Source: Prorocentrum cordatum
Lineage: Eukaryota; Sar; Dinophyceae; Prorocentrales; Prorocentraceae
DNA: 64,000 nucleotides
Assembly: GCA_963575745.1 (NCBI GenBank)
Contig: CAUYUJ010019868.1
Location: 30,001-94,000, forward strand
Direction: 5' to 3'
Within the stretch, counting starts at the first letter, position 1; every line of letters starts with the position of its first letter. The notes beneath the pieces were generated by a model, which did no database searches, was not told where the DNA came from, and saw nothing but the letters and a program-made list of their open reading frames with translations. This document shows positions 5,629-18,163 of the stretch, piece by piece. The position numbers and the translations under genes are program-made.

Positions 5629-5674
5629 GGTCGGGCAAGACGCTGGTGTTCTTGCTGCCCATCCTGCAGCGCCT
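5629..5674 (+). CDS. DEAD-box RNA helicase exon (Walker A), orphan
   Basis: After an acceptor-like GCCGGCAG the sequence encodes (G)SGKTLVFLLPILQRL, matching motif I and its following helix in DEAD-box ATP-dependent RNA helicases (consensus TGSGKTLAFLLPIL). Lys and Thr of GKT bind the nucleotide phosphates. The exon may end at a GTGCGAGG donor near 5675, giving only 46 nt, or run on a few codons. The Q motif, DEAD, SAT and HRxGR motifs were not found in flanking DNA, so this is either one small exon of a gene with very long introns or an isolated fragment. The downstream 0.7 kb contains two foldback elements, as might sit in an intron. Confidence 0.5.
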
Positions 5675-5769
5675 GTGCGAGGATCACCACCCACCAAGCC
5701 ACCCCAACCCAACCCGAAGGCCCCAATGTGCCCTCCCTTCCTGGTGGGGGTGGCGTCGGGGAGCGCTGA

Positions 5770-6412: not shown

Positions 6413-6420
6413 CAATTCTG

Positions 6421-6505
6421 TTAAGTCGGGCCTGTCTCTCTACAAGAGGAAGATTTACAAGTAGTAACAGATAGTATGGGGACGATTATTATAGCATTTG
6501 TTTGG
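6421..6505 (+). mobile_element. Truncated copy of the TTAAGTCGGGC TIR element
   Basis: Begins TTAAGTCGGGCCTGTC and aligns by eye for ~80 bp with the left half of the complete element at 18022-18163 (shared GGGGACGAT and CATTT blocks). The right terminal repeat is missing, so this is a 3'-truncated or diverged copy. It directly abuts the foldback element at 6210-6412. Confidence 0.6.
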
Positions 6506-7149: not shown

Positions 7150-7700
7150 GGCCGAATGCCGACCCAGTGCGCAGTATGCCTGCGGATGCCGTATGCCGGC
7201 CACTTGTCCCCTGCGCTGTACTGCAAGTGCGCGCCGTATGCTGGTCCCTTGTGCGCAGTATGCCTGCGGATGCCGTACGCCGGCAATCATACCTCTGTGC
7301 AGTATGCCTGCAGTGTGTGCCGTATGCCGGCCATTGTGCGCAGTATGCCTGCGAATGCCGAATGCCGGCCCTGTACGCAGTATGCCAGCGATTGCCGCCT
7401 GTCAGCCCCTCTCCGCAGTATGCCTGCGCGTGCGGCTGTATGCCTGCAAGTGGGCGCCGTATGCCGGCCATTAAGCGCAGTATGCCTGCGAGTGCCGTAT
7501 GCCGGCCCCCCCCCATAGCGCAGTATGCCTGCGTGCGTTGCAGTATGCCTGCAAGTGTGTGCCGTATGCCGGCCGTTGTACGCAGTACGCCTGCGGTTGC
7601 CGTGTGCCGGCCCAGTGCGCAGTATGCCTGCGGATGCTGCCTGTCAGCCCCGGTGCGCAGTATGCCTGCGACGTGCGTTTGCCTGCCCTCTTGCACTGGA
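7150..7700. repeat. Tandem repeat with palindromic CGCAGTATGCCTGCG core
   Basis: At least ten imperfect units of ~40-60 bp built from CGCAGTATGCCTGCG followed by GATGCCGTATGCCGGCC. GCAGTATGCCTGC and CCGTATGCCGG are near-palindromic. The array ends ~100 bp before the first ATG of the gag-like gene, so it may be part of the element's 5' region or a separate satellite. Open frames through it on both strands are repeat artefacts. Confidence 0.8.
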
Positions 7701-7794
7701 TGCCTGCGGGTTATGTCATGTGCAACCGCCAGCGCGCGATAAGGGCGCCGAGGGGGATACGTGCACGGCGCTTTCCGACGCGCGCGCAGCATCC

Positions 7795-9583
7795 ATGGCG
7801 CTGGCTCGCTCAGACATCGTTGAGTTGCTTGGCGATCTGCCTGCTGGCGCATTCGGCACCGACAAAAATGCCATCAGGGCGCGCGCGCGTCTCCGTGCGT
7901 CTACCGCGGGCATGAGCCCACTCGCAGCGGCGCGCAAGGCCGATTGGGTCCTCTTCGTCGCAGCGGCCAACGCGGCGGAGGGGGGCGCATCGCCAGCTCC
8001 CGAGCTGGTGCTGTGCACCACGGTCGCGCGCCTGATGGCCGAAGCGATCGGGGCGGTCCGCCCAATTGATTACTCGGATGCGGCCATGCGCGATATGTTG
8101 ATTGCGGCCCTGAAGCCAGGCGCGAAGCCGTTTGCGGGCGATTCTTCCGCGGAGTGGCGCGATTTCGCGATTAAGCCGTGCCACATCAATATGGCGCTGC
8201 GGACACAGTCGCGAGCGATGGAAGCCTTCGGGCGGAAGGCCCCCGCCCCGTTGGTGCGCGAGGACGCGGGCCGCCGCACGGCGTGCCGCCAGGAGGGTCA
8301 GCAATCGGCCCCGGCGGAGGCGGCCGCCAAGCCCGCGGAGGAGACGACGCGGATGGCGGCGGCAATGGAAGAATACGTGAAGGCCAGCAAGGAATTGCTC
8401 GAAGAAAAGCGGGAGAAGCCGCTGGCGTTTGCCATGGAGGCGCGCCGCGTTTTCGCATGCGCGGGCGGCATTGTTCGGGGATACGCGCCTCGGCAGGACC
8501 GTGTGCGCGAGGTCTGGCTCGGCAAGTCCCCCCGTGAGGGATTGCCGACCGAGGAGTCGATGCGCAAATTCGCGGCCGCGGGCCGGACGGCCAGTCCCAT
8601 GGCCGCTCATACATTGGGAGCGCCGAGGGCGAGAGCCTGCAGGCTCCCTGCTCGGCGGCACGCGCAATGACAAGCTTCCGTTTCGCCGATTGCTCCGCGC
8701 GCAGGACCACTGCAAGCCCCAATGGGCGCGAATGCCGAAGCTGGACTCGGCACCAGCGGGGGCGGGCTCGTGGCGCGATCGCGCGTCGGCCGTCACCGCG
8801 GCGAACCGCGCGGGTGCGGCCCTGGACCGAATGGATTTTCTCGGTTATGCGCACTTCCAGGTCGCGCGCGACGCAGCGCAGCGCGCGCGCCCGCGCGCGC
8901 CCCGTGGCGCGAGGCCCACGTAATGGAGTGGGGGCTTCGCTGCATCCTGTCCAAAGTGTTTGATCCCGTCGTGCTATTGGGATACATGTACCAGCTCGCG
9001 CGCGTGAGCGAGGAGCGCGGGGGCGTCAAGGCGCGTCCGCGGAGCGGCGGGCCCGATGCCAGGGAGCCGCGCGCGGGAGCCCGCGCCGCGTCCAGGTTTC
9101 CTACACGTACGATTTGCTTCTCCGCCAGAAAGTGGCGAAAGACCTGGGACACGGCGACGAGGATGCGACGGCCTCGTTCACTGCGTTGTCGTGGGACATT
9201 CTGCGCGCCGCCAAGGAGCGCAGCGCTTTTGAGTGGCCGCCGCCCTGGCATCGTGCATCGCGCTGCGCGCTGTAGGAGAGAGTCCAGCAGTCGGACCGCC
9301 AGGCGGCGTTCGCCACGGGCGGGGGCAAGAAAGGCGGCAACGACCGGCGCGACCAGGCGCGAGCCCGCGCGCGCGCGCCCCGCGAGCGCGAGCACGCGTC
9401 GCGGCGCGCGAGGCGGCGAAGCCACGGACCCCGGTGAGCCCTGTCCTCCGCCAGCGCTCGCGCAGCCCCCGCCGCGATACCTTCAGCAAGAAGGGGAGCG
9501 GAAAGGCCGGCAAGGGCGGGGCTCCCAAGGACGCGGGGAGCTCGCGGCACAAGCCTGAGCGAAAGGAGTCCTGGCGGTGGTGA
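7795..9583 (+). CDS. Gag-like protein of DIRS-like element
   Basis: The first exon starts at ATG 7795 (MALARSDIVELLGDLPAGAF) and is open to a TGA at 8670. It is Ala/Glu/Arg-rich with no enzyme motif, as expected of a structural gag-like protein. The chain resumes in another frame from about 8643 (SLLGGTRNDKLPFRRLL; exact join unresolved, ~8610-8645, at a hairpin). Inferred introns: 8861-8913 (53 nt, GT-AG; HFQ|AHVMEWG), 9031-9095 (65 nt, GC-AG; GVK|VSYTYD), 9357-9412 (56 nt, GC-AG; RRDQ|AAKPRTP). One in-frame TAG lies at about 9273-9275. The C-terminus is basic and RS-rich (RQRSRSPRRDTFSKKGSG), suggesting nucleic-acid binding, and ends at TGA 9581-9583. An alternative is that this stop lies in an intron 9580-9686, which would fuse it to the RT. 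Confidence 0.6.
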
Positions 9584-9681
9584 AGCCAGGGCGCCGGCGC
9601 TGTGCATGCTAATTATTCGCCCGCCCGAGGCGGGCTCCGCGCGCGCGCGCGCGCGCCCCCCCCCGCGGGGGCGCCGCACCA

Positions 9682-12662
9682 GCCAGTGATGCAGACGACG
9701 GGGCCTCCCCATTGCACCCTGCCGACAGCGGTGAGGGCGCAGTGTGGCGCGGGCCGTCGCCCGAGGGGCAGGAGGCGCCGCCAGTGCGCCGCGCGCGAGA
9801 CCGCCCCGCCCGCGGCGAGCGCAGCGCAGGACGCGGATGTTGATTCCGACGACGGCGCCGAAGGCGGGGGCGGCGACTTTTGCCCCCAGCAAATCCACGA
9901 TGCCGGCCGGCTGCGCATTTGAAGAGGACCTTGCCCGCCACTCTACGGGGGCGGAGCCGCGAAGCGCGCGCGCAGATCAAAGCCGCCGTGGATGCGTTGC
10001 TCGACGATGAAGACAAGAGGGCGGGCATGAGCCCTCTTTGCCACGCCGCCCGGGCGGCGCACTTGCCGCGAGTCCGCGAGATAGCGCCGCTTGCGGGACC
10101 TGAGCGCGATGCGGCGGTGGCGGCGAGCCAGACGAGCGACGCACTCTTGCAAGAGAGGCGCGAGGCGGCGTTGCAATTTTGGCGAGAGCGCAAACGTGTG
10201 ACGGCTTCAGAATGGAAGGCGCCGCCGGGCACGCCGCTACCGCGAAGCACCGGCGGAGAGCGCGGTTGGGCGAGGCACGCTATGCGAAGTTACCATGGCA
10301 TGTGCGCTCCGTCCTTGGGCCTGACAAGAACTTGTTGCTTTTGGCCGAAATGATGCAAGCTGCAGGGGTGACCAGCGACGCAGCGCGCGCGCGCGACAGC
10401 GGGGCGCGGCTCCGTGCTTGAGGCGTCCGACGAGAATTCGACGCGTGACTTGGAGCGGGGCTTCCCGCTAGTGGGGGTCCTGCCGCGCTCGGGCATGAAC
10501 GCGCCCGTGACCCCCAAGGGAGCCGAATGCCCATCCGAGTTGCGCAGCCGAGCGGACACTTTGAACGCCGCCACCCTCGAGCGCGTGTCTCGGGATCTGG
10601 GGGCCGACGCGGAAGTCGCCCAGATTTTGCATGATAAAGCATACGAAGAGGCGCGCGCCGCGCAAGCCAGCGGGGACAGTCACCCATGCTGCGACGTCCG
10701 CGAGCGTGCAGGTGGCCGCGGGCCAGGCAGCGTGGGTCCGGTTGTCCGACCTGCCACGCGGGGCGGTGTTAAACCCGCGATTCCCTGTAGACGAGGGATG
10801 GCGCTGGAAGTTGGAAAAATGGATGCGCAAGGAATGGCGCATTCGCCGCGGCATGCACCGTCCCCTCCCCTGGGCGCCGCGCCGGGAGCCAACGCGTCCA
10901 GGTACGCGCGATCGACGATTTCACTGCCACGGGCGTTAATGACTGCGCCGCCGCAGCCGAGAGGTGCAGGCGGGCCCTTTCCCTCCCCCCCCCGCCCCTC
11001 GCGCGCGCTGTCCGCTCTCCCGTGTCGCCGCGACCGCGCGTAGGGTGGATTCTCTCGATGCTCTGGTCGAGCTGGCGCGGATCGCGGCCGCGGCCGGCAC
11101 GCCGGTGCTGAGCAAAGAAGATTTCATCGGTGCTTACAAAACGTTGCCCGTGCGAGGCGCCGACCTCCCGTTGGCCCATTCGGTATGGGCCAAGGGAGCC
11201 CGCGAGGGCTACTGTCTGCAACTTTTGAGCTGCCCCTTCGGCGCCGTGGGCAGCGGATACGCTTGGGACCGCGTTGGGGCGGCGCTCCAGGCGCGAGGCG
11301 CGAGCGCCGCGGCGGCACGGCGAGCGCCCCGCGAGCGCGGCAGGCCATCCTTGCCAAGCTGTTCTCGCTCGCTTCGGGCCGATTCGTGACGATCTGTTCC
11401 GGGCCGACGCGGACAGGGGGCCCGGCACGGGCGGCCCCCGCGATGCCGCAGAGGTCCTGAGGGCGGTCGTCGAAGACCTTTTGGGCTGGCGCCTGGACGC
11501 CGGCAAACGCGTTGTTGCCGAGCCGAGGGCCACTGTGCTCGGCGTCGACGCGGAAGTGCGCGGATCGGGCGATGAGCTCTCGTTAGTATTCGCGATCGGT
11601 GGCGACAAGCGCCACAAATGGATCCAAGAGATCGAGTGGGTGCTGGAGGCAGGGAGAATGTCGCGGGCAGCGGCATCAAAACTTGCCGGCAGACTCGGAT
11701 GGGGCTCCTCTGCGGTGTTCGGCAGAGGCACGCCCAAGCTCCCGCGCGCGAGCGACGCGCGCGCGCGAGAGCGACGGCAGGTGCCCGGGTATACCTCGCC
11801 CCGCTGTTCTGGCACGCGCAGCAGCGGGGATGGAGGTTGAAGTCGCGGCTCCGCAGGGCATTGGAATGGTGGCTGCGCTTCCTCCGGAGCGCGCCGGAAC
11901 GAGCGGCGCCCCTGCGGGTGGCCCCGGAGCGGCCACGCTACCTCGTCTATTCCGACGCGACGGGCGGCGGCAGGCGACATACGCGCGCGCCTGTTGGAAC
12001 GGCGCCCGCATTGCCCGGCCCGCCCCGCCTCCGCAGGCTCGCGTGGGTCATCATTGGGCCCAGCGGTAAGCGCTATGCAGCGGCTGATGTGCCTTCGTCG
12101 ATCAAGTGGTGGACGAAGCACCGCAAGACGCAGGCGGGGGCGCCCCGGCCACGCGTAGCCTGGCGGACAGCCCGCCGTGTTGCGAAAGGTCGCGGCATGG
12201 GAACTCGTCGCGGCCGTTTGCGCCTTGCATCATTTGCTCGCGACGCTGCGCGATGCGAAAATCGTGTTGTTTGTCGATTCGAAGGCGCGGCCGGGCGCGG
12301 GTCGCCGAGCTGCCCGTGCGATGCTCCGCTGACCGCGCCAGGCCGCGCTCGGGGTGCTCCTACGCGGGACCTCGCGCCAGGCAGATTATAACGCGCTCGT
12401 GGCAGATATTTGGTTCGCAGCAGCGACCGCGCGGTGCCTCCTGAGCGCGTGGTATGTGCCATCCGCGCTCAACGTGGCAGACGCCCCTACGCGGCCCGCC
12501 ACGAAGGCGGCCGCGATTGCGGCCATGCACCGCGAGGGCTTCACCCGAGTGGCGCGGCCATGGCCCCGCGCGGCGCCCCGGCATTCATTCGCGCGGGCAT
12601 GCATAGCAAGTAGCACAGGGCAATTTGTAGGGGGCGCAAAGGCTTGCGCGGCGAGCGCGTGA
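9682..12662 (+). CDS. Reverse transcriptase-RNase H of DIRS-like element
   Basis: Copies element RNA into DNA. Visible RT signatures: RAIDDF (~10905), the first catalytic Asp in SKEDFIGAYKTLPV (GAT 11120-11122), CPFGAVGS, and a VDDLF box at ~11382-11399 in which one G is missing (GTGACGAT instead of GTGGACGAT). RNase H signatures: SDATGGG (Asp ~11954), WELVAA (Glu ~12201), VDSKA (Asp ~12276), YVPSALNVADAPTR (Asp ~12480). Inferred introns: 9784-9829 (46), 10219-10274 (56), 10368-10422 (55), 10651-10711 (61), 10832-10901 (70, GA-AG), 10964-11043 (80), 11291-11343 (53), 11728-11780 (53), 11974-12036 (63), 12134-12188 (55), 12285-12341 (57). An extra T in TTTT near 9847 also shifts frame, and 9900-9975 is unresolved. 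No clear ATG; it may be read as a continuation of gag. Confidence 0.7.
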
Positions 12663-12669
12663 CGACCAG

Positions 12670-14757
12670 GCCCGCCGCGAGAGGGGGCCCGCGGGCGCCA
12701 TGCTTGCGTGCTTGTCACACGCGTCGCGGTGGACGCCCGAAAATGATTCGCATCCGGTAGGCGCGGAAGCTCTGCAGTGTCTGACATCCATGCTCGCAGC
12801 CGAAGGAGCGGCGTATCCCCCCGACCTGTCCGGATTCACGGCGAAGGTGGCGAGGGAAGTGTTCCCGTGCCTCCGGGAGTGGTCAGAGTGCTTCACCGTG
12901 ACGCTTATTACTCACGCGCGTAAGCTGACCCACGAAAAGGCAAAGCGGCCCCGGGAGGACGATGCAGCGGCATCGCTCTCCCAGGTCGAGCGCGCGCGCA
13001 ACGCCGCCCCATCCGGCGGAGCAAGCAAGGCCGGCCGCCGCCCGCTGACCCGCGGGCGCGAAGGCGGCGGAAACGTTACTCGAGAAAGCGGCCAAGTGCC
13101 CGGCACCGGCACCGGGCTTGCGCGCGAAACGCCGGCCCGGCGGGGGTTTGACGCGTCAAGAAGCCCTCGCGTTGCTCTCAGCGGCAAGGCAGGCACGGCA
13201 GGCACCACCGCGCGGCGCCACCGTCCTCGTGCACCGCGCGCGGCGCGGAGGTACCAGCGCCGCCGATGCTGGCAGAGGCAATCCGCCAGCTGACGAAATC
13301 CAGGCTCCGCCCGCGATATTCATAAGCGAAGGCGGCATTCCGCGGGAGGTGCGCGCGAGGCAGGACATCGGCGCGCGGCGGGTGCCAGGAACACCTCGTC
13401 GGCGCGCCGAGGAATTGCGGGTGTCAGGAGCAGGACTGGAGTGCATGCGCCGCATCCAGATGGCCGCGCTGTGGCGAGAATTCCACGCGTGGTAGCTCTC
13501 GGCATACCCGTATGCCTCGGCGGTGGAGTTGTACGGCCAGGCGTGCGATGCGGCAGGCGTCCCGCCCTGGCCGCCGTGCGCCATAGCGCGGGACATGATG
13601 GTGGCGCTCTGTCGCCGCCCGGGGACCCTGTCGAACTATTTGCAGGGCATTCGCTCAGTCCTGCATCTGCTCCGCGCAGACACAGGGTCTTTGGCGGACA
13701 CGCGGACCCTGGTATTCGGTGCCCGAAAGGTACGGCCGCCGCGCGCGTCGGCCGCGAGCCCATGATATCGGCGGCAGGCGGAGACGCCTGGTGCGCAAAG
13801 ATTTCGCGCGCGCGCCACGGCCGAAAACGTGCGCGCGATGTCGGATTGGCTGCGCGAGGCGCGGCCGCGCGCTCTTCGAACTAAGCGGCCTGCCGTGCGT
13901 GCCGGCCCGCGGGCCTGGCGTTTGGCAGATCGGACGCGGCGATATGGCCGACGCTTTCGTCATATGCTGGCAGATCTGCTTGCGCTTCGGCTCCGAAGTA
14001 GTGGGGCTGAATGCGCCTGGGCATAGTGCCGTCTCGCTCCACGTAGACGAAGGAAAGCACCAGGTGCAGGTGCAATTCCGCCAGCGGAAGGGGAGAGTGG
14101 CTCCCGACCCGGCGGGCCGAGCGCGCGCGCGCGGCGGGGCGCGCCCCGGGCTCCCCGCATCGCGAGGTCTGGAGGGTAAGCGTATGCCAGCTCCAGGGCA
14201 AACGATTGTGTGCGGTCTGCATCATTCGGCATTCGCTCCGGCCCGGCGAGCAGCTCCTGCCGGGCGTCTCTTACGTGGACGGGCTGGCTTGCGTCGAGCT
14301 CGCCGCTGCCCACCTCGGGCTCCATAGGGCATTGGAGTGGGGGACGCATTGCTTCAGGCGCGGCCGGGCCGACCAGGCATGGGCTCCCCTTGCCGCCCCC
14401 TGCCTACCCAGGGCCCGCGCGCGGTTCGCGTCTCTCGCACGCAGGCACTCCGCACCGGGGGGCCAGCAGCGCTGTTCTTCGAAGGGGGTTGGAGATCTTT
14501 GGCCGCGCTCGGGCACTCCATTCCGACAGGGGGCACGGCCGCGCTGCCTGGGTCGCGAGGGCGCGGCGCTTGGCGGCGCGCAGGTACCCGGCCGCAAAGA
14601 CGCGAGCCATGGTGCTGGCGGCAGAAGCCGAGATCGCGCACTCCGATTCCGACGAGGCGCCGCCCTGCAGGCATCAGGGTCGGGGCTCCGCGGCGGCGCG
14701 TGGCGCGCAGGACGCGCCGATCGCCGCGGAAGCGGTGCAGGGGCCGCCCAGGCCGTG
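12670..14757 (+). CDS. Tyrosine recombinase of DIRS-like element
   Basis: Integrase of the element, rejoining circular cDNA to the genome by the tyrosine mechanism. A possible start is ATG 12700 (MLACLSHASRWTPENDS); intron 12627-12669 would instead fuse it to the RNase H. Visible: an N-terminal SAM-like segment (PGTLSNYLQGIRSVLHLL), box I LRFGSEVVGLN (Arg 13983-13985) and box II THCFRRGRADQA (His 14347, Arg 14356). The nucleophilic Tyr is not certain; the usual position after GGWRSLAALG reads His. Inferred introns: 12985-13063 (79), 13193-13250 (58), 13730-13777 (48), 13859-13928 (70), 14091-14166 (76, GG-AG), 14377-14444 (68). Each join reads through cleanly, for example LRE|IGRGDMAD and QRK|VWRVSVC. 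The segment 13290-13500 (in-frame TAG at 13493-13495) and the end after ~14530 are unresolved. Confidence 0.65.
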
Positions 14758-14920
14758 AGTCAAGCAGACCAGGCATCTGCGGTCTGCTTAGAGCGCGCTT
14801 GGGCGTCGTTCCGCCGAGCATGCATCGGGAGGCGTCGGCGAGGTTGCTCGGCTCCGCGACGCCGACTCGCGCTCACCCCACCGCCTGGCCTGGGCCTGCG
14901 CCAGTCGACGGTTGTGCCCT

Positions 14921-15020
14921 NNNNNNNNNNNNNNNNNNNNNNNNNNNNNNNNNNNNNNNNNNNNNNNNNNNNNNNNNNNNNNNNNNNNNNNNNNNNNNNN
15001 NNNNNNNNNNNNNNNNNNNN
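14921..15020. other. Assembly gap (100 N)
   Basis: Run of exactly 100 N at the end of the DIRS-like element; any 3' terminal repeat may be lost here. Confidence 0.99.
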
Positions 15021-15129: not shown

Positions 15130-16975
15130 GATCAATGACTGGATGGCAGGGACCTCGCAGCGCGCGGTGAGCGCGTGAGCTTCTCCTTCGCTCTTCTCCC
15201 TCTCCCTCGCTCTCCTTCTCTCTCCTTCCCTCTCCCTCCCCCTCCTTTCCCCTCCCTCTCTCCTTCCCGTTCCCTCCTCTCTCGCTCTCTCCCACCTTCC
15301 CTCCCCCTCTCCCGACGGCGACGGCGATGCCGACGGCGAAGGCGAAGGCGGCGGCGACCGACGGCGGCGACGACAACTACGACAAATGGCGATGACGACG
15401 GCGAACATGACGACGACGACGAGCGATTTTTCCCAGCGACGTCAAGGATTCACCTCATCGTTCGAAACGTTTGGAAACAAGCGATTCGCCAGAATTAGTG
15501 AAGGCAGTGACTTTTAACAGGGCATGCACGGCGTAACATTTCTGCAGCGTGTCGTTCCTCCACCATCCTGCGGCACTTGTGCGAGGATCGGGTTCGGACG
15601 AGGTGGGTGGGGGCTGAATGGCGGGGGGGGTGCGGCGAAGCCCGCTCCGTGCAGCCGGTTCCGGCCCGCCGCCGGACGCGCATGTTCTTACACGTGGCCG
15701 CCTCTGGCGCTCTTGGGAGGCCCTGGGGAAGCCAGTCATGTGCGGCCGCTTCGTCGCTATGGAGGAGGAGGTGTCCCGACTGCGGGGATGGGCGCGCGGC
15801 TGTCCCGACTACGTTGATGGGCGCGCAGTGCCGTAGCGCTCACAATGGGAGGTCGAGGAAGCCATCTTCAAGCACCGACCACTGCTCAGAAGAGAAAGGC
15901 AACGTAAACCAATTGACATTGCCATGTCTCGCGTCATACCCTTGTGCTTGTAGATAGGCGCAAGTCTCGTCAGTTCACCTCCTGCGCGGTCGATTTGGGG
16001 AAGCCTGCCTTTTGCTCGCCTGCCCCTGCTGGCGTCCCACACAGTGGCGCGCGATGGCCACTCCCCGAACGCTAGCTCCGCACCAGATAACTTCAGGTAA
16101 TTAGGAGGGAAAGAAACACACAGACACAATTAATCGTCGACTCCCAGGAAAATATAGGAAAGTATGGGGCGTGGGGGGAGACAAAAAACCAGAACATATA
16201 TGAAATTATGGGGAATAATCTTATTTGTGTATATTTATTTGTGCGTCCTGGGGCCCCTTCAATAACTTCAGGTAAGTCTAGAAAGGCTGGCGCGCATCAA
16301 AAGGTGTCCAGAAGCATCTGGAACTCCAGCTCGAGCCGAGGGACAGCAGGCGCCCCTCTGCGCTGGGCCACCTGCGCCGCCCCCCCGCCCCCCACCCCGC
16401 CCCGCCCTCGCCCGCGCCCGGAGGAGGCGGCCGCGGCGGCCGCCGAGGTGCCCGCGGGTGCAGGCGGGCGGCCGCGACTCCTCCTGCCTCCTGCCTCCTG
16501 CCGCCTCCTCCTCCTCCTGCCTCCTCCTCCTCCTCCTCCTCCGCCTCCTCCTCCTGCCTCCTGCCTCCTCCTGGCTCCTCCTCCTCCTGCCTCCTCCTCC
16601 TCCTGCCTCCTCCTCCTCCTCCTTCCTCCTCCTTCCTCCTCTCCTGCCTCCTCCTTCTCCTCCTCCTCCCCTGCCTCCTCCCCCTCCTCCCCCCCTCCTC
16701 ACCCTCCCTCTCCTCCCTCCTCCTCCTCTTCGGCCTCCTCCTGGCTCTCCTCCCTCCTGCCTCCTCCTCCTCTTCCTTCCTGCCCCCTCCTCCTCCTCCT
16801 CCCCTTCCTCCTCCATCCCCTCCCTCCTCCTATCCTTCCTCCTCCTCCTCCTCCTCCTCCTCCTTTTCCTCTTTCCTTGCTCTCCTCCTCTCCTCCTGCC
16901 TCCTCCTCCTCTCCTCCTCCCCTTCCTCCTCTCCTCCTCTTCCTCCTCCTCCTCCTCCTCCTCCTGGCCTCTCTC
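15125..16975. other. Non-coding stretch with pyrimidine and (CTC)n tracts
   Basis: No recognisable gene. CT-rich DNA spans ~15180-15310, GGCGAC repeats ~15315-15430, and a long interrupted CTC/CCT array ~16490-16970 ends just before the RNase H fragment. Large Ser/Pro/Leu and Glu/Arg/Gly frames here are shadows of the array. Confidence 0.65.
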
Positions 16976-18013: not shown

Positions 18014-18021
18014 TGCTTGCG
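18014..18021. repeat. Target-site duplication, left
   Basis: TGCTTGCG, repeated exactly at 18164-18171. Confidence 0.9.
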
Positions 18022-18163
18022 TTAAGTCGGGCCTGTCCCTGTACAGGAGGAATATTCAAAAATAGGCAACAATAGTTCGGGGACGATGTTTGACCATGCA
18101 TTTTTTTAGCTATGTTTTATTTGTCGTCCAAAATTCCCCTGTAGGGGGACAGGCCCGACTTAA
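18022..18163. mobile_element. Complete 142-bp TIR element with 8-bp TSD
   Basis: The terminal inverted repeats begin TTAAGTCGGGCCTGTCCC and extend about 30 bp with few mismatches on both ends. The directly repeated octamer TGCTTGCG flanks the element at 18014-18021 and 18164-18171, a clear target-site duplication. The interior is AT-rich and non-coding. Small size, TIRs and an 8-bp duplication are what is expected of a MITE (hAT elements make 8-bp duplications) or an introner. It lies within the 3' end of the hAT-like gene on the minus strand. Relatives at 35089-35250 (complete) and 6421-6505 (partial). Confidence 0.9.

Follow-up and report, generated by a model that had tools for sequence, protein, structure and literature searches.

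A candidate intron-bearing retrotransposon of DIRS order in the dinoflagellate Prorocentrum cordatum

Retrotransposons that copy mRNA are expected to shed their introns within one cycle. Penelope-like elements were reportedly described with introns by Arkhipova in 2003, and their precedent bears on the locus examined here, a putative retroelement in a 64,000-nucleotide (nt) stretch of Prorocentrum cordatum DNA (contig CAUYUJ010019868.1, positions 30,001 to 94,000; hereafter the window). A 2013 account explains the spliceosomal introns kept by Penelope-like elements by an antisense or unspliced template (PMC3846280). The window element resembles them in its apparent retention of introns and differs in its enzymes: theirs are a GIY-YIG endonuclease and a telomerase-like reverse transcriptase (RT), whereas the window element appears to carry an RT with RNase H and a tyrosine recombinase. 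No GIY-YIG match was found in the scanned pieces of the element. Positions 7795–14758 of the plus strand comprise three coding regions, each interrupted by short GC-rich inserts:

7795..9583, +, open reading frame (ORF) 1, gag-like, ATG to TGA, exons with predicted introns (open frame, model reading)
9985..12580, +, RT-RNase H coding region, ends approximate (homologs, tblastn, fold of the uninterrupted homolog P0002)
12700..14758, +, putative tyrosine recombinase coding region, exons with introns, start approximate (homologs P0043, P0044 and P0046; PHROG integrase matches of P0044 and P0046)

We read this locus as probably a dead copy of a DIRS-order retrotransposon (gag, RT-RNase H, recombinase) from a dinoflagellate lineage that keeps spliceosomal introns of 48–74 nt and uses unspliced RNA as its template. 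Splicing of the introns would yield the proteins and the unspliced transcript would be the template for reverse transcription, so that new copies would inherit the introns, as in the precedent of Penelope-like elements, where introns may pass through an unspliced template. A lineage keeping about twenty introns would thus imply a template that escapes splicing, which could be searched for in public dinoflagellate RNA data.

A wider proposal, on which we are evenly divided, is that a dinoflagellate clade of tyrosine-recombinase retrotransposons has kept its introns while spreading and diverging on the scale of subfamilies, with an intron even in the presumed catalytic tyrosine codon. Propagation with introns would require that spliced message be kept apart from unspliced genomic RNA. 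The clade would then represent a second, independent solution beside that of Penelope-like elements, and would act as a mobile vehicle and record of intron gain. If true, it would supply many related copies of one gene for counting intron gain and loss, in eukaryotes known for intron gain; the relative P0001 already suggests one difference in intron presence. An intron-bearing element of DIRS order was unannounced in the titles and abstract starts of the literature searched, where subscription journals were sparse, which is no proof of priority.

Coding regions and place among DIRS-order elements

Ngaro elements have gag, RT-RNase H and recombinase in that order on one strand, and no methyltransferase. 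The window element is alike in gene order and single strand, which makes it a possible Ngaro element, and differs by its roughly 20 predicted introns. DIRS1-like elements have the order gag, recombinase, pol, plus a methyltransferase (PMC3266345); a text search of that overview did not return the word "intron". With its order of gag, RT-RNase H and recombinase, the window element is therefore not DIRS1-like, and no methyltransferase match was found in its scanned pieces (12560–13049 lay outside the scan). Nearer in host are the DIRS elements of Symbiodinium, described as having a divergent RT that aligns poorly to Pfam (de Mendoza 2018, PMC5890265). The same source places >90% of Symbiodinium DNA methyltransferases in genes without introns; the expanded ones lie within retrotransposons, and the annotation used an intronless mode. 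Both are dinoflagellate tyrosine-recombinase retrotransposons with a Pfam-poor RT, but the Symbiodinium annotation is intronless.

Exons were joined domain by domain, giving an RT-RNase H of 473 residues and a recombinase of 276 residues, and uninterrupted relatives align to these proteins over their full length. This bears out the first-pass annotation of the locus, in which the frames were said to change at short GC-rich inserts whose removal restores the proteins. The joined RT-RNase H found 40 relatives, 21 of them at 43–49% identity over 96–100% of the query. Pfam gave a mere trace of RVT_1 in the RT region (E 0.33). A structure model of P0002, an uninterrupted RT-RNase H homolog, was built from 15 sequences with a predicted local distance difference test score (pLDDT) of 87.5. 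Its best Protein Data Bank match was a caulimovirus RT (E 2.6e-12), followed by the RTs of human immunodeficiency virus 1 and murine leukaemia virus, at low TM-scores of 0.25–0.35 over the whole model. The fold of this homolog points to an encoded RT with RNase H, as DIRS order calls for. Pfam had no match in the gag-like piece scanned, 7798–8670.

For the recombinase the joined query found 13 relatives, three of them uninterrupted (P0043, P0044 and P0046; coverage 95–99%). P0044 and P0046 share 42% identity with the joined window exons at 95–99% coverage, and in a scan covering the relatives both matched the PHROG integrase phrog_1 (E 8.5e-5 and 1.7e-4, respectively); the P0043 match to the PHROG integrase was weak (E 0.22). 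The window recombinase and its relatives align at an HxxR and at a late tyrosine, both characteristic of tyrosine recombinases. Two results speak against this identity: Pfam scans of the recombinase in the window and the relatives returned zero matches, and the structure prediction (pLDDT 38.9) was too poor for a fold search. Alignment and profile matches nevertheless indicate a probable tyrosine recombinase, the other enzyme expected of DIRS order. Residues 16–45 of P0044, at the start of this uninterrupted relative, gave a weak match to sigma-70 region 4 / helix-turn-helix, under the curated cut-off.

Insert borders and the motif-blind test

The predicted introns, together with two copy defects that are not inserts, are as follows:

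8582..8642, +, predicted gag intron, gene model only
8861..8913, +, predicted intron HFQ/AHV, GT..AG/G; model, no homolog
9031..9095, +, predicted intron GVK/VSY, GC..AG/G; model, no homolog
9216..9275, +, predicted gag intron, gene model only
9357..9412, +, predicted gag intron, gene model only
10219..10274, +, predicted intron SEWK/ARY; top motif-blind join
10368..10422, +, predicted intron AAG/ASDE; top motif-blind join
10651..10711, +, predicted intron YEE/VAAG; top motif-blind join
10832..10901, +, predicted intron MRK/VRAI, GA donor; top join; insert in P0001
10970..11043, +, predicted intron ERCR/VDSL; second-best join; apparently lacking in the P0001 protein; P0019 and P0025 read out of the insert
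11291..11343, +, predicted intron ALQ/AILA; top join; insert in P0001, P0019, P0025 and, in another frame, P0054
11374..11391, +, frame break in the YxDD active-site box, a copy defect and no intron; box intact in P0001, P0019, P0025 and P0054
11728..11780, +, predicted intron GRG/ARVY; top join; insert in P0001
11974..12036, +, predicted intron GGR/LAWV; top join; same profile column in P0035; alignments of P0001, P0040 and P0062 end there
12134..12188, +, predicted intron KTQ/VAAW; top join; same position in P0035; P0039 alignment ends there
12285..12341, +, predicted intron DSK/AALG; third of 409 joins, 0.2 under the top; same position in P0038
13493..13495, +, in-frame TAG in the recombinase, a copy defect; sense codon in P0041, P0042 and P0050
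13730..13777, +, predicted intron ARK/AETP; rank 26 of 415; same position in P0042; P0041 reads on into it
13859..13928, +, predicted intron LRE/IGRG, AG/A acceptor, cut approximate; rank 23 of 584; insert also read in P0041, P0049 and P0051
14112..14166, +, predicted intron PDP/VWRV, moved from QRK/VWR; tied top join; same position in P0042, P0047 and P0052
14377..14444, +, predicted intron ADQ/ALRT; top join; same position in P0047
14513..14583, +, predicted intron LG/Y, within the presumed catalytic tyrosine codon; top join

Final cuts were set for 17 inserts, using the 10970 cut and including two in gag without homologs. They are 48–74 nt long, with a mean GC content of 0.81 against 0.65 in 12 exon stretches, and only three have lengths divisible by three, so the other 14 would break the frame. 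Donors are GC in 13, GT in three and GA in one. The first-pass annotation had given AG|G borders throughout; AG does end all 17 inserts, and G follows in 16, LRE|IGRG being AG|A. These borders follow the dinoflagellate spliceosomal pattern of a GT, GC or GA donor and an AG|G acceptor. In P. cordatum, donors are reported as 24.7% GT, 51.4% GC and 23.8% GA, with an AGG acceptor at 79.7% and a mean intron of 4709 bp genome-wide (PMC10666404). The element's inserts are alike in borders but far shorter.

Junctions were also placed blind to the motif. At each of 15 junctions, joins lying up to 24 nt from either border (409–584 alternatives per junction) were scored against profiles of uninterrupted relatives; for the YEE, PDP and LG|Y junctions, the anchor frame was taken from the stated junction. 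The G[TCA]..AG|G cut was within the top-scoring set at 11 of 15 junctions, the top place of PDP|VWR being a tie of several joins. ERCR|VDSL ranked second and DSK|AALG third, both at most 2.5 score units from the top. The motif is matched by 1.6% of random cut pairs, and dinoflagellate-type borders at 11 of 15 joins found free of the motif support the reading as introns. At these junctions, the uninterrupted RT-RNase H relatives have zero inserts of at least six residues. An earlier ER|VDSL cut at 10964 ranked 12th and was dropped for 10970 after comparison with P0001 and a retest.

Six of the ten junctions named in the first-pass annotation ranked top (SEWK, MRK, ALQ, GRG, GGR and KTQ), with DSK a near-tie; LRE is ambiguous and HFQ is without a homolog. 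QRK|VWR had been misplaced, and was moved to PDP|VWR (14112–14166) on the evidence of P0042, P0047 and P0052 and of the uninterrupted P0043, P0044 and P0046. The first-pass estimate of about 20 introns is reasonable, 15 being homology-tested and five being model-only in gag. A gene model based on codons, without the AG|G rule, could not place introns. A model of composition, trained on these very inserts (17) plus supported exons, recovered eight of 15 table cuts and the revised 10970 cut, with none of five in the recombinase; this poor recovery leaves the five gag introns weakly grounded.

Shared inserts in relatives and their tree

Inserts in relatives were read at the protein level, from translated ORFs; scans of viral contigs and genome contigs yielded no relative's locus at the DNA level. 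Close relatives sharing inserts with the window are P0001, P0019, P0025, P0054, P0041, P0051 and P0053. The ALQ insert occurs in the first four of these, and P0001 also reads through or ends in those at MRK, GRG and GGR. P0041 reads through or ends in inserts at ARK and LRE, and P0051 and P0053 match the window at 97% of residues (196/202 and 186/191) across exons and inserts alike. More distant relatives, at 40–49% identity to the query that found them, have inserts at GGR and KTQ (P0035, left edge placed by eye), DSK (P0038), ARK and PDP (P0042), PDP and ADQ (P0047) and PDP (P0052); alignments of P0040 and P0062 end at GGR and that of P0039 at KTQ. Being common to close and distant relatives, the inserts would be old. 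One relative, P0037, is an annotated P. cordatum gene model with 56% identity over 27% of the query; like the GC content and the splice borders, it points to a Prorocentrum host.

The relatives' insert residues agree with the splice borders. Of 28 rows fitting the pattern, 15 were false (uninterrupted proteins) and two had split codons; all 11 remaining unsplit-codon inserts start with V, A, D or E, end with Q, K or E and are followed by a codon beginning with G, which are the residues required by GT/GC/GA..AG|G borders. At ERCR|VDSL, P0001 reads ERCRVDSL, exactly the predicted join, as if the intron were absent, and P0019 and P0025 read out of the insert. Conversely, P0055, P0040, P0062 and P0039 have an insert near RT profile columns 402–418, where the window has none, possibly a lineage-specific intron gain or loss. 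We infer that single introns are still gained or lost within the lineage.

Conservation separates exons from inserts. Between the window and P0001, compared over three inserts with the best window frame taken, 295 of 318 exon residues are identical (93%) and 29 of 57 insert residues (51%; Fisher P 3e-13). This suggests that RT-RNase H was kept as a protein, and so was used while the introns stayed.

A tree of 54 rows was built under the C20 mixture model from 194 columns outside the inserts, with rows of <70 filled columns dropped. Twelve rows were labelled as insert-bearing: the window, P0001, P0019, P0025, P0054, P0035, P0037, P0038, P0039, P0040, P0055 and P0062. P0037 was labelled for the jumps in its alignment and because it lies close to P0040. 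P0026, whose frame ends at KTQ, was left unlabelled, and the other 41 rows were labelled as having none, several being fragments that cover some junctions. All 12 labelled rows fell on one branch, requiring one change, with support 95/91; shuffled labels required a mean of 11.1 changes, and none of 500 shuffles was as low as one. The unlabelled P0026 fell inside the insert-bearing branch, which holds three subfamilies separated by branches of 0.54–0.63 changes per column. This branch supports a single lineage of insert-bearing sequences, and the evidence from borders, joins and relatives supports the first-pass view of the inserts as spliceosomal-type introns in a tyrosine-recombinase retroelement.

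Several points weigh against this interpretation. Splicing is predicted from the sequence, and ARK|AETP and LRE|IGRG were unrecovered in the motif-blind test. Tree labels were assigned by hand from alignments, and the uninterrupted rows include fragments. The long branches of P0039 and P0026 meet in the tree; when they were dropped, the branch held 11 rows at 93/86. A simpler LG+G4 tree grouped only 11 insert rows, at support 54, with P0039 elsewhere. GC-rich host composition could aid grouping, though no odd composition was flagged. The database is biased toward copies with inserts that by chance stay in frame, and the relatives may be dispersed copies of one genome, or one locus across samples or species. 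The element's right end falls in an N gap (14921–15020), and a search of the element for a target duplication and for terminal repeats, whether inverted or split direct as expected of DIRS order, came up empty. A residual chance of parallel insertion, weighed below, also counts here.

Alternative readings, copy state and flanks

The window copy is dead, barring assembly errors at two defects: the frame of its YxDD box breaks near 11380, and its recombinase has an in-frame TAG (13493–13495). Neither interruption is an insert, and the relatives examined are intact at both sites. These defects bear on the alternative that survives best, that of a domesticated family: an element captured as a host gene would have gained introns as host genes do, and its copies would have spread by DNA duplication. 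Dinoflagellate genes are often duplicated, the introns are host-like and exons are conserved above inserts. Against this, an RT-RNase H reading persists in several divergent subfamilies of the clade, recombinases are likewise preserved in the relatives, and the loss of the RT active-site frame and the recombinase stop would be odd in a host gene in use. Breakage in two essential domains argues against domestication of the window copy, which the first-pass annotation had suggested; as a host gene family, the reading stays a rival, but a doubtful one.

Alternatively, the recombinase would excise and reinsert the element as a double-stranded circle, so that its introns never meet splicing. Tyrosine recombinases act on DNA circles, and such movement would account for complete intron retention, but it leads one to expect decay of RT-RNase H, at odds with the 93% exon against 51% insert identity in P0001 and with the intact YxDD box in four of four close relatives. 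We consider movement as DNA improbable. Movement as unspliced RNA or DNA had been raised together in the first-pass annotation and is favored, with unspliced RNA our preferred form.

Less probable still is independent intron gain by each copy or subfamily at favored AGG sites. Introner-driven gain is documented in dinoflagellates, where introner elements are described with short direct repeats at intron borders (PMC7789003, PMC10666404, PMC11453091). P0001 seems to lack one window intron, and some relatives have the additional insert near columns 402–418. However, six of seven positions in distant relatives, within the tested stretches, coincide with window introns. In a rough test that counted AGG sites in the window rather than in the relatives, P was 0.002 if insertion could use any of the 27 sites and 0.22 if it could use half of them, 0.006 if columns 402–418 count as two positions, and 0.0004–0.001 when only AGG-sited introns were counted. 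The shared PDP|VWR site is also non-AGG in the window. Parallel insertion at AGG sites is thus unlikely.

The inserts share short border repeats with introner elements, but their positions are common to distant relatives. Introner identity was judged by inverted repeats of 8–20 nt near both ends and repeated families. Inverted repeats of 8 nt occurred in two of 17 introns (shuffle p 0.39 and 0.10) and two of 60 exon pieces, and mean fold z was −0.30 for introns and −0.41 for exon pieces, with the GRG intron alone at −3.2. No intron matched elsewhere in the window by blastn. As a set, the introns are not enriched in terminal inverted repeats or hairpins and so lack the hallmark of introners, which also speaks against independent gain, and introner identity was rejected.

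A reading in which the inserts are assembly errors or low-complexity loops of the translated protein is very improbable. Some database ORFs do read through them, which on its face matches what the first-pass annotation had named as counter-evidence, namely paralogues translating the inserts as conserved protein; the insert residues, however, are poorly conserved, as in the three compared with P0001. The frame-breaking lengths, the lack of inserts in uninterrupted relatives and the splice-rule borders also argue otherwise. Gain in the window copy after its insertion, also proposed initially, is the least probable reading: dead copies can be interrupted freely, but relatives at 40% to 97% identity have inserts at the same positions.

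Several smaller features lie at the element's edges. Just past the recombinase stop, 14762–14789 holds a perfect 9-bp inverted repeat capable of forming a hairpin (fold of 14752–14800, z −2.1; 7 of 200 shuffles equally good), possibly part of the element's 3' end. Immediately 5' of the gag start, 7151–7708 consists of degenerate tandem repeats with core GCAGTATGCCTGCG, whose membership in the element is undecided. A short open stretch at about 5629–5690 reads GSGKTLVFLLPILQRLCED, which we take to resemble a helicase motif I exon; 27 bp of it match 15563–15589, beyond the element's other side, at 89%. A repeat of about 68 bp, 82% identical between 6420–6486 and 18021–18087, flanks the element on both sides.

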